From NCBI RefSeq assembly GCF_001708405.1, contig NZ_CP012418.1, positions 1,764,501 through 1,828,500 on the forward strand: a DNA stretch of 64,000 nt, written 5' to 3'. The stretch's first letter is position 1, and each line of letters starts with the position of its first letter. Positions 6,704-24,924 of the stretch are shown here, one piece after another. Both the position numbers and the translations under genes were made by a program. The stretch comes from Kangiella sediminilitoris. GTDB taxonomy: Bacteria; Pseudomonadota; Gammaproteobacteria; Enterobacterales; Kangiellaceae. Below the pieces are notes generated by a model. It saw only the letters and a program-made list of their open reading frames with translations. It was not told the DNA's origin and searched no databases.

Positions 6704-8476
6704 CTACTGTTCTTTCTTTTTGATTTCGATGCCAAGCTCGTCCAGCAACTTATCTTCAATGGTGCTTGGTGCCTGAGTTAATGGGCAGCTTGCAGTGGTC
6801 GTTTTCGGGAATGCGATAACATCACGAATCGAGTCAGCGCCAACCATTAACATGACTAGACGATCAAGACCAAACGCCAAACCACCATGTGGAGGACAAC
6901 CGAACTTCAACGCATCCAATAGGAAGCCAAATTTTTCACGCTGCTCAGTTTCGTTGATACCCAAAATACCGAACACCGCTTCCTGCATTGCCTCATCGTG
7001 GATACGTACTGAGCCACCACCGACTTCACTTCCGTTTAGCACCATGTCATATGCTTTTGACAGAGTACCCGTAGGATTATTCTTTACTGCTTCAACATCC
7101 AATTCTTTTGGTGCTGTGAATGGATGATGAAGTGCGTGAATATCGCCGTCAATTTCTTCAAACATTGGGAAGTCAACAACCCATAGTGGTTTCCACTCGT
7201 CTTTAACCAGCCCTAAGTCATGAGCTGTTTTCAGACGTAGCGCACCGATAGCGTCAGCAACCACCATTTTCTTATCCGAACCAAAGAAGATAATATCACC
7301 TTCTTCGGCACCAACTTTTTCAATAATTTTCAGAGCGACATCTTCGCCCAGGAACTTCAGTACAGGGCTTTGAATTCCTTCGGCTCCAGCACCGTTAACC
7401 TTCATCCAGGCCAGGCCTTTAGCTCCATAGACACCAACGTATTTGGTGTATTCGTCAATTTGCTTACGACTGAACTGAGCACCGCCAGGGACACGTAAGG
7501 CTGCTACACGACTACTTTTATCATTCGCCGGGCCAGCAAATACTTTAAACTCTACATCTTTAACCAGCTCATCAACCGTGACCAGCTCGGTATCCATTCT
7601 TAAGTCTGGCTTATCTGAACCGTAACGCTCCATCGCCTCTGCATAACTCATGCGAGGAAATTCTGGTAACTCGATACCTTTCAGCTCGCTGAAAAGGTGG
7701 CGAACCAGACCTTCCATCAGGCCCATTATCTCTTCCTGATTCATGAAAGACATCTCAATATCCAGCTGCGTGAATTCAGGCTGGCGATCGGCTCGTAAAT
7801 CTTCATCACGGAAACACTTTACGATTTGGTAATAGCGATCAAAGCCAGACATCATTAGCAGCTGCTTAAATAACTGTGGCGACTGAGGAAGCGCGTAAAA
7901 AGAACCTTTATGTACCCGACTTGGCACTAGATAGTCACGTGCACCTTCAGGCGTTGCCTTGGTCAAAATTGGAGTTTCTACATCAATGAAACCATTTTCA
8001 TCCATATAGCGGCGCATGGCGCTGGTAACTTTGTGGCGGAAAATAATGTTATTTGCCATTTCAGGACGACGAAGGTCCAGATAACGGTATTTCAGACGCT
8101 GCTCTTCGGAGGCTTCTAGATTTTCATCGATTGGAATCGCTGGAGGTTTAGCACGGTTCAGGATTTCAAGATCCTGTGCCAACACCTCAATCTCGCCAGA
8201 TGCCATGTTCTTATTAACCATATCTTCTGGACGAGCGCGGACCTGGCCTTTGACCTGAACCACAAATTCACTACGCAACTGTTCGGCTAAACTGAAAAGC
8301 TCTTTAAAATCAGGATCAACCACCACCTGAATCACGCCAGTGCGATCTCGTACCTGTAAAAAGATAAGGCCACCCAAATCACGGCGACGATGGATCCACC
8401 CTGACAAAGTAACCGTTTGATTTTCTTCACTTTTCGTTAATTCACCACAGTAGTGGCTGCGCATTTCAGTTGCCAT
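6704..8476 (-). CDS. aspS: Aspartyl-tRNA synthetase
   Basis: Charges tRNA-Asp with aspartate in the cytoplasm. The 590-residue protein has the bacterial architecture: an N-terminal OB-fold anticodon-binding domain (residues ~1-105), the class II catalytic core, and the bacterial GAD insertion domain (~290-420). Motif 2 is visible in [18 protein letters not shown] (~217-234) and motif 3 in [12 protein letters not shown] (near 536). It begins the aspS-yebC-ruvCA block; 218 bases separate it from yebC, so yebC may have its own promoter. The upstream gap contains the divergent olsF control region. Confidence 0.98.
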
Positions 8477-8607
8477 AGTTTTCGTTTCTGCCTAACGATT
8501 AATTAATAAATAGGGCCGCATCGTCATTTGGGCCCGGAAAAGACGCCATATAGTACGTGAGACAAGGATTTGTCGCAAGTTACAGCAGACTTCAGATTGT
8601 ACAAATT

Positions 8608-8663
8608 TTGTCACAAAAGCGTCTCAAGGCTGCAATTCGGCTGTCACATTCCCTATAGATAAT
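8608..8663 (+). promoter_or_regulatory. Probable PhoB-dependent promoter of the olsF-like gene
   Basis: Four 7-bp units lie exactly 11 bp apart: TTGTCAC (8608), GCGTCTC (8619), CTGCAAT (8630) and CTGTCAC (8641). The PhoB box consensus is two CTGTCAT-like repeats with a 4-nt spacer, so this is a tandem box. GATAAT at 8658-8663 begins 10 nt after the last unit, the spacing known for Pho-box promoters, in which the box replaces the -35 element. The middle units match less well; the outer two match 6 of 7. Confidence 0.6.
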
Positions 8664-8681
8664 GCCAGTTATGAGCAATTT

Positions 8682-8699
8682 ATGTCATCAGTCTGTCAT
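8682..8699 (+). promoter_or_regulatory. Second Pho-box-like pair next to the olsF start
   Basis: ATGTCAT-CAGT-CTGTCAT is two 7-bp half sites with a 4-nt spacer, matching 6/7 and 7/7 of the PhoB consensus. It lies 17 bases before the ATG, just before the AAAGAGG ribosome-binding site, downstream of the predicted -10 at 8658, so its role could be autoregulatory, part of a second promoter, or incidental. Confidence 0.5.
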
Positions 8700-8716
8700 T
8701 AAAGAGGTGGAACACT

Positions 8717-10426
8717 ATGATTAACAGCAAAGAGGTCGTGGAACAATTTTTGCCTCAGCTGGAGAAAACGCCAAAGCTTCAATCCGGCGCTACTCGGCTA
8801 TTAGCTAAGTTGTTTCATCAACAAGAAGTTAATGACTTCATTAAACAAAACAGCCACATGTCTCATGTAGACTTTCTGGAAGCAGTTAACCAGCGTCTGG
8901 GATTAAGTTATTCCGTTTCTAATTCCAGTGTGGAAAATGTACCGGTTTCTGGCAGAGTGGTCATCATCGCGAATCACCCCCTAGGTTCGCTTGATGGCCT
9001 GGCTCTGCTTGCCCTGATACATTCTATTCGGAAGGATGTAAAAATCGTGGTTAATGATCTTTTATGGTCTATGACACCGCTACGCCCATTTTTTCTGCCC
9101 ATTAATAACATAGCTAAGGGGCAGGGTGTGGAAAACCCTAGACAGAAATTACAAAACATCCAGCGGGCACTGGAATCTGAACAGGCAGTTATTTTCTTCC
9201 CTGCCGGAGAAGTCTCACGTTTATCATTAAAGGGTATTCGTGACGGTAAGTGGCGCTCTGGCTTTTTAAAAATGGCTAAACAAACCCAATCGCCAATCCT
9301 GCCCATTCATGTTGGTGGAAAGAACTCTCGCTTTTTCTACGGCTTTTCATTAATTGCAAAACCTTTAAGCGCTTTATTTTTGGTACGAGAAATGTTTAAA
9401 AATGTCTCTTTAACGCTACCGATAAAGATTGGTAAGCTGATTCCCTTTTCATCATTCAGTGGCATGTCGCCCGCCAGTAAAGAAAGCGTTGAGCGCTTCA
9501 AGCAACATGTATATGGCTTAAAACGAGAACGAGAAGAGTTATTTGAAACAGAGCGGGCCATCGCTCACCCCGAAAACCGAAAAGTGTTAATCGAAGAACT
9601 CAACAGATGTGAACATATTGGCCAGACAACCGATGGTAAAAGTATTTATTTACTGGAAGATACGTCTGACTCAGCCCTTCTCAGAGAGATTGGCAGGCTA
9701 CGCGAAATTGCCTTTAGAGCAGTTGGGGAAGGCACCGGTAATCGACGTGACGTGGATAAGTTTGATTACTACTATAAACATATTGTGCTTTGGGATTCGA
9801 ACGATTTGGAAATTGTTGGAAGCTACCGTATTGCTGATATTAATACCTTCAAGGATGGCCAAACGCTGTATTCTGAAACCTTGTTCAGTTATGAAGAAAG
9901 TTTGCAGAAAAAATTTCCGACCGCTATGGAGCTGGGGCGCAGTTTCATTCAGCCCAGATATTGGGGCAAACGAAGCCTGGACTACTTGTGGTTTGGAATT
10001 GGCGCATACATACGACAAAAACCTCATATACGTTACCTTTTTGGCTCTGTCAGTTTAAGCAACGACTATCCACCCTTCGCCAAAGATATGCTGATTTATT
10101 ACTTTAACCGATACTTTGGTGCTGAGTTCAATCTGGTTCGTTCTTTCAATCCTTACCGAATAAAGCCAGTACAAAAATCGAAACTGGAATACTTATTCAA
10201 TCACCAGGAACAAGCGGAAGCTTTTAAGACGCTTAAAAGAGAGTTGGCTGTGATGGGAGTTACTGTTCCAACACTGTTTAAACAATACAGTGACTTATGC
10301 GAAGACGGCGGTGTCACATTCTATGAGTTTGGTGTAGACCCTGATTTTGGAGACTGTATTGATAGTGTGGTCTGGGTAGACCTGCTTAAGTTAAAAGAAA
10401 AGAAGCGTAATCGCTATATAGATTAA
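8717..10426 (+). CDS. olsF: Bifunctional OlsF-type aminolipid (ornithine lipid) synthase
   Basis: A fusion of two acyltransferases, 569 residues. The N-terminal half is a PlsC/OlsA-like O-acyltransferase with NHPLGSLDG (residues 86-94; H87 and D93 as the catalytic pair) and FFPAGEVSR (~159). The C-terminal half (~295-520) resembles the OlsB-type GNAT N-acyltransferase (REIAFRAVGEG, then ELGRSFIQP). Proteins of this layout (OlsF of Serratia and Vibrio) make ornithine or related lipids: the GNAT half puts a 3-hydroxyacyl chain on the amino acid and the PlsC half adds the second chain. Such lipids replace phospholipids under phosphate shortage. The start has the AAAGAGG site 8 bases upstream, and a Pho-box-like array precedes it. 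The amino acid used cannot be read from sequence. Confidence 0.8.
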   Translation: MINSKEVVEQFLPQLEKTPKLQSGATRLLAKLFHQQEVNDFIKQNSHMSHVDFLEAVNQRLGLSYSVSNSSVENVPVSGRVVIIANHPLGSLDGLALLALIHSIRKDVKIVVNDLLWSMTPLRPFFLPINNIAKGQGVENPRQKLQNIQRALESEQAVIFFPAGEVSRLSLKGIRDGKWRSGFLKMAKQTQSPILPIHVGGKNSRFFYGFSLIAKPLSALFLVREMFKNVSLTLPIKIGKLIPFSSFSGMSPASKESVERFKQHVYGLKREREELFETERAIAHPENRKVLIEELNRCEHIGQTTDGKSIYLLEDTSDSALLREIGRLREIAFRAVGEGTGNRRDVDKFDYYYKHIVLWDSNDLEIVGSYRIADINTFKDGQTLYSETLFSYEESLQKKFPTAMELGRSFIQPRYWGKRSLDYLWFGIGAYIRQKPHIRYLFGSVSLSNDYPPFAKDMLIYYFNRYFGAEFNLVRSFNPYRIKPVQKSKLEYLFNHQEQAEAFKTLKRELAVMGVTVPTLFKQYSDLCEDGGVTFYEFGVDPDFGDCIDSVVWVDLLKLKEKKRNRYID

Positions 10427-11406: not shown

Positions 11407-12615
11407 TTATTTGATCAGGAGTTCTTCCAGTATTCGATAATACAGTTTGCATAAATGATTTAATTCAGAAATTGAGACACGTTCATTAGCCTGATGAATA
11501 GTTTTATTACAGGGGCCAAGCTCTATTACCTGTCCAGCCAGCTGCTTTAGGTACCGTCCATCAGAAATTCCTCCAGCTGTGGTTAAACGCGTTTTGATAT
11601 GCTGCTCCTGCTGTATCACTTTCTGTACGATCTTACGTAACTTTCCGTGCCGGGTAATATAAGGCTCGGCTTCATGTTCCCATTCAAACTCAGCTTCAAG
11701 TCCATATTTTTTAGCTTTGCGCTCAACATAATTTTTAATTTTATTAAAAGTGTTACGAGGCGAATAACGGAAATTAAAGACCATTTCCAAAGATGCCGGG
11801 GTAACATTCATGGCACCACTCTCAGAATGCACTTTGACCAGCTGAAAACTGGTTGAAGGAAAATATCGGCTGGGCATATCCCACCTTTTGTTAGCTAGCT
11901 TATGGATCAACTTAGACGAGTTATGAATTGGATTAATCAGCTGTTCTGGATATCCTACGTGGCCCTGCTTACCCTTAATGTTTATCCTTGCATTAATAGA
12001 ACCTCGGCGGCCAATACGAATAGAGTCACCCAGCTGCTTATCTGTCGTAGGTTCGCCCACAATGGCATAGTCAATTTTTTGACCACGCTGGATTAATGTA
12101 TTAACAATATGCTGCGTTCCATCAACCGCCTCCCCTTCCTCGTCACTGGTCAGCATTAGACCGATGTTCCCTCGGTGATGCGGATATCGTTTAACAAACT
12201 GTTCGATGGCTACTACCATTGCAGCTAAACTTCCTTTCATATCGGAAGCCCCCCGCCCATAGATGTATCCCTCTTTCAGTGTCGGAGTAAAAGGATCACT
12301 ATCCCATCGAGCACCGTGCCCGGGAGGAACTACATCGGTATGGCCAGAGAAAACCACTGCTGGATGTTTTGACATTTTATTGTCACGACAAGCCCATAGG
12401 TTGGTTACTGAATTTTTGTTGATGTACTCTATCAGGAAACCGGATTGCTGTAGTCGCTCTGCTATTAGTCGGCTACAACCGCTATCCTCAGGAGTTATTG
12501 AAGGAATCCGAATAAGCTCCTGAACTAACTCAAGGATAGAATCCTGGTATTGCGCGTGCTCTCTAGATGCAAATGCATATGGTAAATCAGGTAAACCTTT
12601 AAACGACTTAAACAT
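11407..12615 (-). CDS. Second DapE-like M20 deacylase
   Basis: A 402-residue zinc hydrolase of the succinyl-diaminopimelate desuccinylase type. All expected residues are seen: FSGHTDVVPPG (zinc His), [14 protein letters not shown] (bridging Asp), TSDEEGEA (catalytic Glu pair) and NKTIHQANE (C-terminal His). Compared with the dapE at 60505, it carries about 25 extra N-terminal residues (FKSFKGLPDLPYAFASREH) and changes in the substrate loop (GGISDGRYLKQLA). The start is supported by AAGGGG 8 bases upstream. It is monocistronic, away from other lysine genes. It may be a true second DapE or act on another N-acyl amino acid. Confidence 0.85.
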   Translation of the reverse strand: MFKSFKGLPDLPYAFASREHAQYQDSILELVQELIRIPSITPEDSGCSRLIAERLQQSGFLIEYINKNSVTNLWACRDNKMSKHPAVVFSGHTDVVPPGHGARWDSDPFTPTLKEGYIYGRGASDMKGSLAAMVVAIEQFVKRYPHHRGNIGLMLTSDEEGEAVDGTQHIVNTLIQRGQKIDYAIVGEPTTDKQLGDSIRIGRRGSINARINIKGKQGHVGYPEQLINPIHNSSKLIHKLANKRWDMPSRYFPSTSFQLVKVHSESGAMNVTPASLEMVFNFRYSPRNTFNKIKNYVERKAKKYGLEAEFEWEHEAEPYITRHGKLRKIVQKVIQQEQHIKTRLTTAGGISDGRYLKQLAGQVIELGPCNKTIHQANERVSISELNHLCKLYYRILEELLIK

Positions 12616-12796
12616 AAATATCCCCTTAAGTTTTGCACTTTATAGCTTTCCTTCGTGAAGCCTGAGCGACAAAAACATGACAGTTTGATGTTAATTATTA
12701 GAATCAATAACTTATAGTTGAAAACGCCGCTTTATATTGATTTATACTTGTATTACAGTACTAATTAATCTAACTATCTGTCCTTAAAGAAAAATT

Positions 12797-24250: not shown

Positions 24251-24273
24251 TGTCACCTAAATGTCAGGTGACA
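24251..24273. repeat. 8-bp inverted repeat upstream of the HTH-2TM gene
   Basis: TGTCACCT (24251-24258) and AGGTGACA (24266-24273) are perfect complements with a 7-nt loop, just after the stop of the previous gene. A TATACT (-10-like) follows at 24303-24308. Without a T-tract it is more like an operator than a terminator, possibly for the HTH protein downstream. Confidence 0.5.
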
Positions 24274-24390: not shown

Positions 24391-24924
24391 ATGATTGTAA
24401 GAAAACTACGATTACGAAATGGATGGTCACAGGAACAACTTGCTGAAATGACCGGACTTAGCGCCCGCACCATTCAACGAATTGAACGTGGTAAGCCTGC
24501 CAGTCTTGAAAGCCAGAAAGCCCTTGCCTCTGTGTTTGAAGTGGATATCGCCACCTTTCAAAACCCTGAGTTAATCACAAAAGACTCTCAGGAACATCAA
24601 ACCAAGGAGCCTGTAATGAATACACAGAACACAAACGACCAAACTGAAGCAACGGAAAAACCTGTAGAGAAAGTTTCAGATGAGGAGGCGGATGCCATGC
24701 AATACGTCAAAGGCCTCAAAGACTTCTACGGACACGTAATTTTTTACATCATTTTTTCTGTTATATTTATTCTCACAGGAAGAATATCAGAAATGCTTTT
24801 CCCATGGGGTGCATGGAGTTTTGTACTACTTGTTCATGGCCTTCAAGCCCACGAAGTCATTAATATCCTCAACATCAACTGGGAAAAAAAGATGGTGGAG
24901 AAGCGGTTGAAGAAGAAACTATAG
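24391..24924 (+). CDS. Membrane-anchored HTH regulator with C-terminal 2TM domain
   Basis: A 177-residue protein. Residues ~1-55 are an XRE-type helix-turn-helix (VRKLRLRNGWSQEQLAEMTG, then LSARTIQRIERG). A polar linker (TQNTNDQTEATEKP) follows, then a 2TM domain with two hydrophobic hairpin segments (~110-130, 138-155) and a basic tail (KKMVEKRLKKKL). This is the fusion family HTH plus 2TM (PF13239), so the DNA-binding domain is tethered to the membrane. The ATG at 24391 is chosen because AGGAAGAG precedes it by about 5 bases; the 24358 ATG is upstream without such a site. Confidence 0.88.
   Translation: MIVRKLRLRNGWSQEQLAEMTGLSARTIQRIERGKPASLESQKALASVFEVDIATFQNPELITKDSQEHQTKEPVMNTQNTNDQTEATEKPVEKVSDEEADAMQYVKGLKDFYGHVIFYIIFSVIFILTGRISEMLFPWGAWSFVLLVHGLQAHEVINILNINWEKKMVEKRLKKKL

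Follow-up and report, generated by a model that had tools for sequence, protein, structure and literature searches.

The original paper on PhoB-controlled OlsF in Vibrio cholerae is reportedly that of Barbosa (2018). In the available portions of PMC12186959 and PMC13157583, V. cholerae olsF (VC0489) is reported to be PhoB-controlled, its product is bifunctional, and ornithine lipid is formed in low phosphate in a PhoBR-dependent manner. A Pho box at an aminolipid gene is also described for olsB of Acinetobacter and Burkholderia (PMC11828411, PMC7814305, in the parts available), which differ in using the OlsBA pathway and not OlsF. On the translational side, the available portion of Beck et al. 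2016 (PMC4965119) describes Escherichia coli mRNAs (e.g., ptrB, rhaB, rcnR and others) with an upstream AUG at most 2 nt from the mRNA end; such 5'-uAUGs bind 70S ribosomes, some of them altering downstream expression and several having little effect on the main gene. The locus considered here, from the marine bacterium Kangiella sediminilitoris, appears to combine elements of both kinds. It lies in a window of 64,000 nt of contig NZ_CP012418.1, whose numbering is used unless a genome or locus is named.

The gene at 8717–10426 on the plus strand encodes a predicted ornithine lipid synthase, OlsF, of 569 aa. It scores 793.9 bits against NF052615, the NCBIfam model of the bifunctional ornithine lipid synthase OlsF (equivalog cut-off 620), and matches PF19576, PF01553 and PF13444, with an N-terminal acyltransferase domain followed by a C-terminal GNAT-type N-acyltransferase. 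The two acyltransferase domains and the score above the NF052615 cut-off bear out the first-pass annotation, which had named the gene an OlsF-like acyltransferase fusion. Eight OlsF relatives in named records, all from Kangiella, match residues 1–569 with 73–87% identity in the best segment. The upstream neighbor, aspS (6704–8476, minus strand in the ORF list; TIGR00459 838.5 bits, cut-off 373.85), runs the opposite way, and olsF therefore needs a promoter of its own. At 8540–8583 the stretch AAGACGCCATATAGTACGTGAGACAAGGATTTGTCGCAAGTTAC is almost invariant in one Kangiella group and is probably the divergent aspS promoter.

Direct reading of the sequence ahead of olsF confirms the coordinates of four 7-bp units that had been proposed to form a Pho promoter, phased by 11 bp on the plus strand: TTGTCAC (8608–8614), GCGTCTC (8619–8625), CTGCAAT (8630–8636) and CTGTCAC (8641–8647), the last separated by 10 nt from a -10 hexamer, GATAAT (8658–8663). 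The first unit is kept in the genus alignment; the second has the GCGTC form also seen in the second pstS unit (GCGTCAT) of the same genome; the third, weak alone, preserves its spacing across a nine-species alignment; and the fourth is the promoter-proximal one, a unit standing 10 nt upstream of the -10 in 14 of 14 genomes. A consensus scan returned no sigma70-type -35 partner for the GATAAT at 8658–8663. To score these units, a Pho matrix was derived from 19 unique 18-mers, which represent 18 pstS and 10 pstS-like promoter sites of the genus, with the olsF sites excluded (of 20 pstS sequences, that of L130 was left out as lying at the edge of a contig, and that of L128 did not fit the training pattern). 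Far from being at background level, the pair formed by the first two units (8608–8625) scores 21.6 bits and ranks 1 of 127,966 window positions, the next best reaching 12.3 bits; its zero-order p is 2.9e-8, equivalent to 0.14 expected in the genome. The inner pairs score poorly (8619–8636, -10.4 bits, rank 1000; 8630–8647, -3.8 bits, rank 188), which marks units 2 and 3 as weak when taken alone.

At the scale of the 2.5-Mb single-contig genome, a stringent Pho pattern with at most one mismatch yields four matches, and its backward control one: olsF and a pstS-like gene match exactly, and pstS and a site within folP (genome position 252776) match with one mismatch. The loose consensus YTGTCAYNNNNYTGTCAY with at most two mismatches was discarded as uninformative because its 192 matches hardly differ from the 186 of the control. 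The matrix also finds a 19.4-bit Pho box, CTGTCATGTAACTGTCAT, at L161:825–842 on the minus strand, ahead of a porin-like ORF (named by reading only) that is divergent from the pst operon, which suggests that the matrix generalizes. Elsewhere in the window, a 12.3-bit Pho-like pair lies at 12677–12694 on the minus strand, about 60 nt upstream of dapE (11407–12615). At 24251–24273, an inverted repeat, TGTCACCT-N7-AGGTGACA, is flanked by a short ORF and by one at 24391 that resembles an XRE-type regulator (with no NCBIfam match at 1e-10); the repeat looks like an operator and not like a Pho box. The regulators themselves are encoded in the genome, PhoB scoring 327.5 bits against TIGR02154 (cut-off 296.2) and PhoR 413.2 bits against TIGR02966 (cut-off 334.2), within one cluster, pstC-pstA-pstB-phoU-phoB-phoR-pstS, whose members besides PhoB each exceed at least one curated equivalog cut-off.

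The same architecture recurs across the genus. OlsF is found above cut-off in 14 of 20 Kangiella genomes, and all 14 share, in register, a Pho-like unit followed after 10 nt by a -10-like hexamer and, 7 nt further on, by AT(G/A). As the spacing of unit, 10 nt and hexamer is shared by 19 of 19 usable pstS and 20 of 20 pstC leaders, it can be seen as the Pho promoter layout of the genus. The upstream olsF pair scores at least 18.4 bits in 8 of the 14 and 13.9 bits in L017, where four good Pho units can be read by eye at the same places; the best pair is low, from -0.1 to 9.8 bits, in the other five (L014, L015, L016, L021 and L024, the K. aquimarina group). Beyond the genus, 38 loci were compared, namely the 30 best-scoring OlsF loci from a search of the order (93 OlsF-positive of 197 genomes) and 8 further family loci, with L146 excluded for too little upstream DNA and L154 and L155 for falling below the cut-off. 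Relative to dinucleotide shuffles, a Pho box is present at p<0.05 in 26 of these 38 upstream regions and at p<0.01 in 16, and 38 control stretches inside olsF genes gave none at p<0.05. PhoB control of olsF thus looks old in the order. With a matrix score far above background, the PhoB/PhoR/Pst cluster in the genome and the spacing in 14 of 14 Kangiella olsF genes, the PhoB-type promoter that had been predicted ahead of the OlsF gene holds good: olsF very probably lies behind a standard phosphate-starvation promoter, to which PhoB would bind. The evidence for this promoter is good and its kind is ordinary, PhoB control of olsF being already reported from V. cholerae; such control of an ornithine lipid gene in Kangiella is expected biology.

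Just past this promoter lies a predicted leaderless upstream ORF (uORF), MSNLCHQSVIKEVEHYD, at 8671–8724 on the plus strand. Its ATG falls where transcription is expected to start, exactly 7 nt beyond the -10, its TAA (8722–8724) overlaps the first olsF codons, and a Shine-Dalgarno-like AAGAGGTG of olsF, read from the sequence, lies inside it (8702–8709). An ATG occupies this exact position in 13 of 14 Kangiella, and in L017 it is ATA with the frame still open. From ATG or ATA to the olsF start the frame is stop-free in all 14, though the two lie 35 to 191 nt apart and the uORF has between 15 and 64 codons, with a drifting peptide; as in the 5'-uAUG class, a short ORF remains open up to the main gene. 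No distance among the 14 is divisible by three, and fusion of the uORF to olsF therefore never occurs; the overlap between the uORF stop and the olsF start is 4 or 8 nt (12 genomes parsed, the overlap in L017 and L029 read by eye). In L012 the uORF has expanded to the full 64 codons, still open and with an ATGA end on olsF.

It might be argued that there is only an ordinary PhoB-olsF promoter here, and that the ATG and the open frame stem from shared ancestry and a preference in the initial transcribed sequence, with no translation from the 5' end. The promoter part of this account is solid by the matrix, genus and order comparisons; L017 does without the ATG; a start-site ATG is found in 0 of 19 pstS leaders (and in 1 of 10 pstS-like leaders, at 8 nt); and an out-of-frame ORF running over the olsF start from any ATG within 200 nt exists in 16 of the 38 olsF genes outside the genus. 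Given the last figure, ORF overlap alone is no signal, and it is the position of the ATG at the start site that carries it: the layout of box, 10 nt, -10, 6–8 nt and ATG is present in 13 of 14 Kangiella versus 1 of 38 other olsF genes, and in that single case the uORF stops short of olsF. What speaks against the promoter-only account is this retention of the ATG in 13 of 14, together with a uORF frame that has 0 stops in 294 codons versus 41 in 308 and 19 in 303 in the other two frames (together 60 in 611), and whose length shifts without the frame closing. Ancestry was taken into account by simulating the frame along a tree of olsF third positions, with the frame required to be open at the root. 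With full branch lengths, a frame of 14 codons gives P = 0.0003 and one of 19 codons 0 of 4000 runs; the corresponding values are 0.0045 and 0.0008 with half branch lengths, and 0.051 and 0.0165 with quarter branch lengths. A harsher treatment, i.e., clustering the 14 uORFs into 3 groups by a crude lenient alignment, leaves P at ~0.09 and so leans toward the promoter-only account, but it is a poor control that the tree simulation supersedes. On balance, it appears unlikely, though by no means negligible, that the promoter is the whole story.

A conserved uORF peptide, for its part, was rejected: three close pairs show 12 nonsynonymous and 1 synonymous codon changes, and the peptide can thus be regarded as free of constraint. 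A frame kept open while the peptide changes freely would mean that selection acts on ribosome loading or on translation as such, and not on the peptide.

The reading preferred here, to which we would assign a probability of roughly 0.6, is that PhoB produces an mRNA with a 5'-AUG whose uORF feeds the translation of olsF. The box, its spacing and conservation, the open frame and the identity of the gene are seen in the sequences themselves, and the steps built on them are predicted. In low phosphate, phosphorylated PhoB would occupy the four-unit array (8608–8647) and recruit RNA polymerase to the -10 at 8658, and the polymerase would transcribe the ornithine-lipid synthase gene olsF from a start predicted at, or within 1–2 bases of, A8671. 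With a start there, the olsF mRNA would begin with AUG, and ribosomes might load on this terminal codon in the manner of leaderless mRNAs, translate the uORF of 17 codons and stop at the olsF start codon. Ribosomes loaded at the 5' end would then feed the translation of olsF, or this translation would be coupled to their loading, with help from the gene's own Shine-Dalgarno sequence. The peptide would have no evident role; what is preserved is that the frame stays open between the mRNA end and the olsF start. In one species group, an extra PhoB site inside the uORF (8682–8699 in the present genome) would probably trim the output.

Predicted folding of the leaders is compatible with such loading, the 5' AUG being mostly unpaired (mean pairing 0.06–0.35). 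The olsF Shine-Dalgarno region has a mean pairing of 0.39–0.71, with no consistent hairpin that hides it; as olsF also has a Shine-Dalgarno-like sequence of its own, translational coupling would not be obligatory. Two familiar kinds of leader regulation were considered and set aside. An RNA switch or a hairpin hiding the Shine-Dalgarno sequence is not indicated, the minimum free energies of the 14 leaders lying within ~1.7 sd of 100 mononucleotide shuffles (the L013 leader, the most stable relative to its shuffles, departs by ~1.3 sd). A leader-peptide attenuator likewise finds no footing, with a drifting peptide, folding near that of the shuffles and, for window positions 8300–9000, nothing matched in Rfam at E values up to 1.

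The first-pass annotation had pointed to a second Pho pair as well, ATGTCAT-CAGT-CTGTCAT at 8682–8699 on the plus strand (ATGTCAT 8682–8688, CTGTCAT 8693–8699; 11.6 bits, rank 3 in the window). Its sequence and coordinates stand, but as a further activating box it is not supported: it lies downstream of the expected start and inside the uORF, 12–29 nt along when the uORF ATG is counted as +1, is followed by no -10 at 10 nt, and reaches p<=0.003 against random leaders in only 5 of 14 Kangiella (L018, L009, L013, L028 and L029). A start of its own near olsF, dependent on PhoB, could be imagined from the sigma70-like match at 8693–8721 (CTGTCA and TATGAT with a 17-nt spacer). However, its -10 would sit on the olsF start codon and the resulting mRNA would be without the olsF start; with the -10 missing at the Pho distance and a pair that is not genus-wide, a second promoter at this place was rejected as extremely improbable.

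A more serious candidate is that the pair represents another PhoB operator that has a separate regulatory role, e.g., a self-limiting roadblock past the start when phosphorylated PhoB is high. The five significant leaders point in this direction, those of L029 (23.2 bits) and L013 (18.6 bits) being like a strong box, and TGT CAT is, by eye, identical in the five and in L011 while the adjacent codons drift, a pattern that fits constraint on the DNA over constraint on the peptide. On the other hand, L011 (0.012) and L010 (0.015) are borderline and the remaining 7 of 14 show no significant pair; about 29 equally good matches are expected per genome; the best offset in L009 (+13) is unlike that in its neighbor L018 (+24); and a CHxxV/L peptide motif could account for part of the pattern, so that there is a residual chance of peptide constraint as one of its causes. 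Such a regulatory role is plausible, if at somewhat less than even odds. Significance in 5 of 14 marks the pair as a clade-specific downstream site and not as part of the core promoter, and we take it for an accessory PhoB site acquired within one Kangiella group, where it possibly acts as a brake on output.

A comparable arrangement is encountered at a second Pho gene. In the window's genome the pstC leader reads CTGTCAT, 10 nt, TATAAT, 6 nt, ATG and a 6-codon ORF; this predicted 5'-uAUG lies at L161:993–1013 (genome C1:499492–499512), and its ORF, MILELV, ends 1 nt before pstC. An upstream ATG is present at pstC in 8 of 20 Kangiella, in 7 of which an ORF of 17–27 codons runs into pstC out of frame. 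The other 12 leaders are without it, six of them (the K. aquimarina group and the genome of L017) having ATC there as read by eye. As a 22-nt leader is almost invariant among the eight, the pstC case is weak evidence. From the two genes one might conjecture that in Kangiella the PhoB response is tied to leaderless translation, with olsF (13 of 14) and pstC (8 of 20) transcripts starting on AUG. At times when normal initiation becomes limiting, the 5'-AUG uORFs of these starvation mRNAs would draw in intact 70S ribosomes, and the PhoB site in the olsF uORF would cap output; in this general form the idea is doubtful and stands as speculation.

With the olsF Pho promoter traced across an order, the uORF would add a translational layer to it, in the form of a 5'-terminal AUG uORF that is kept open genus-wide with a freely changing peptide. 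The Kangiella olsF leader would hence lend itself to testing, in a simple system, whether main genes are fed by leaderless uORFs in nutrient starvation. Among the matches listed from the open-licence literature, no title on a uORF of such a kind at olsF was found, and the main text of PMC12186959 mentions neither a uORF nor leaderless translation for V. cholerae. The leaderless cysteine-attenuator sORFs of mycobacteria (Canestrari et al.; PMC9031893, in its available part) offer a parallel in that a leaderless short ORF controls the following gene; unlike these, the Kangiella uORFs are without a run of cysteine codons and show no sign of an amino-acid-sensing attenuator. A closer parallel might be struck with the E. 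coli 5'-uORFs, wherein, according to the available portion of PMC4965119, a short ORF ends near or across the downstream start (as in the ATGA overlap of rhaB) and the main gene has its own Shine-Dalgarno sequence; the word "conserved" is absent from the main text of that paper. The Kangiella olsF leaders differ from the E. coli ones in that their start site is predicted, their promoter is of the PhoB type, and their uORF drifts in sequence while staying open in 14 genomes.
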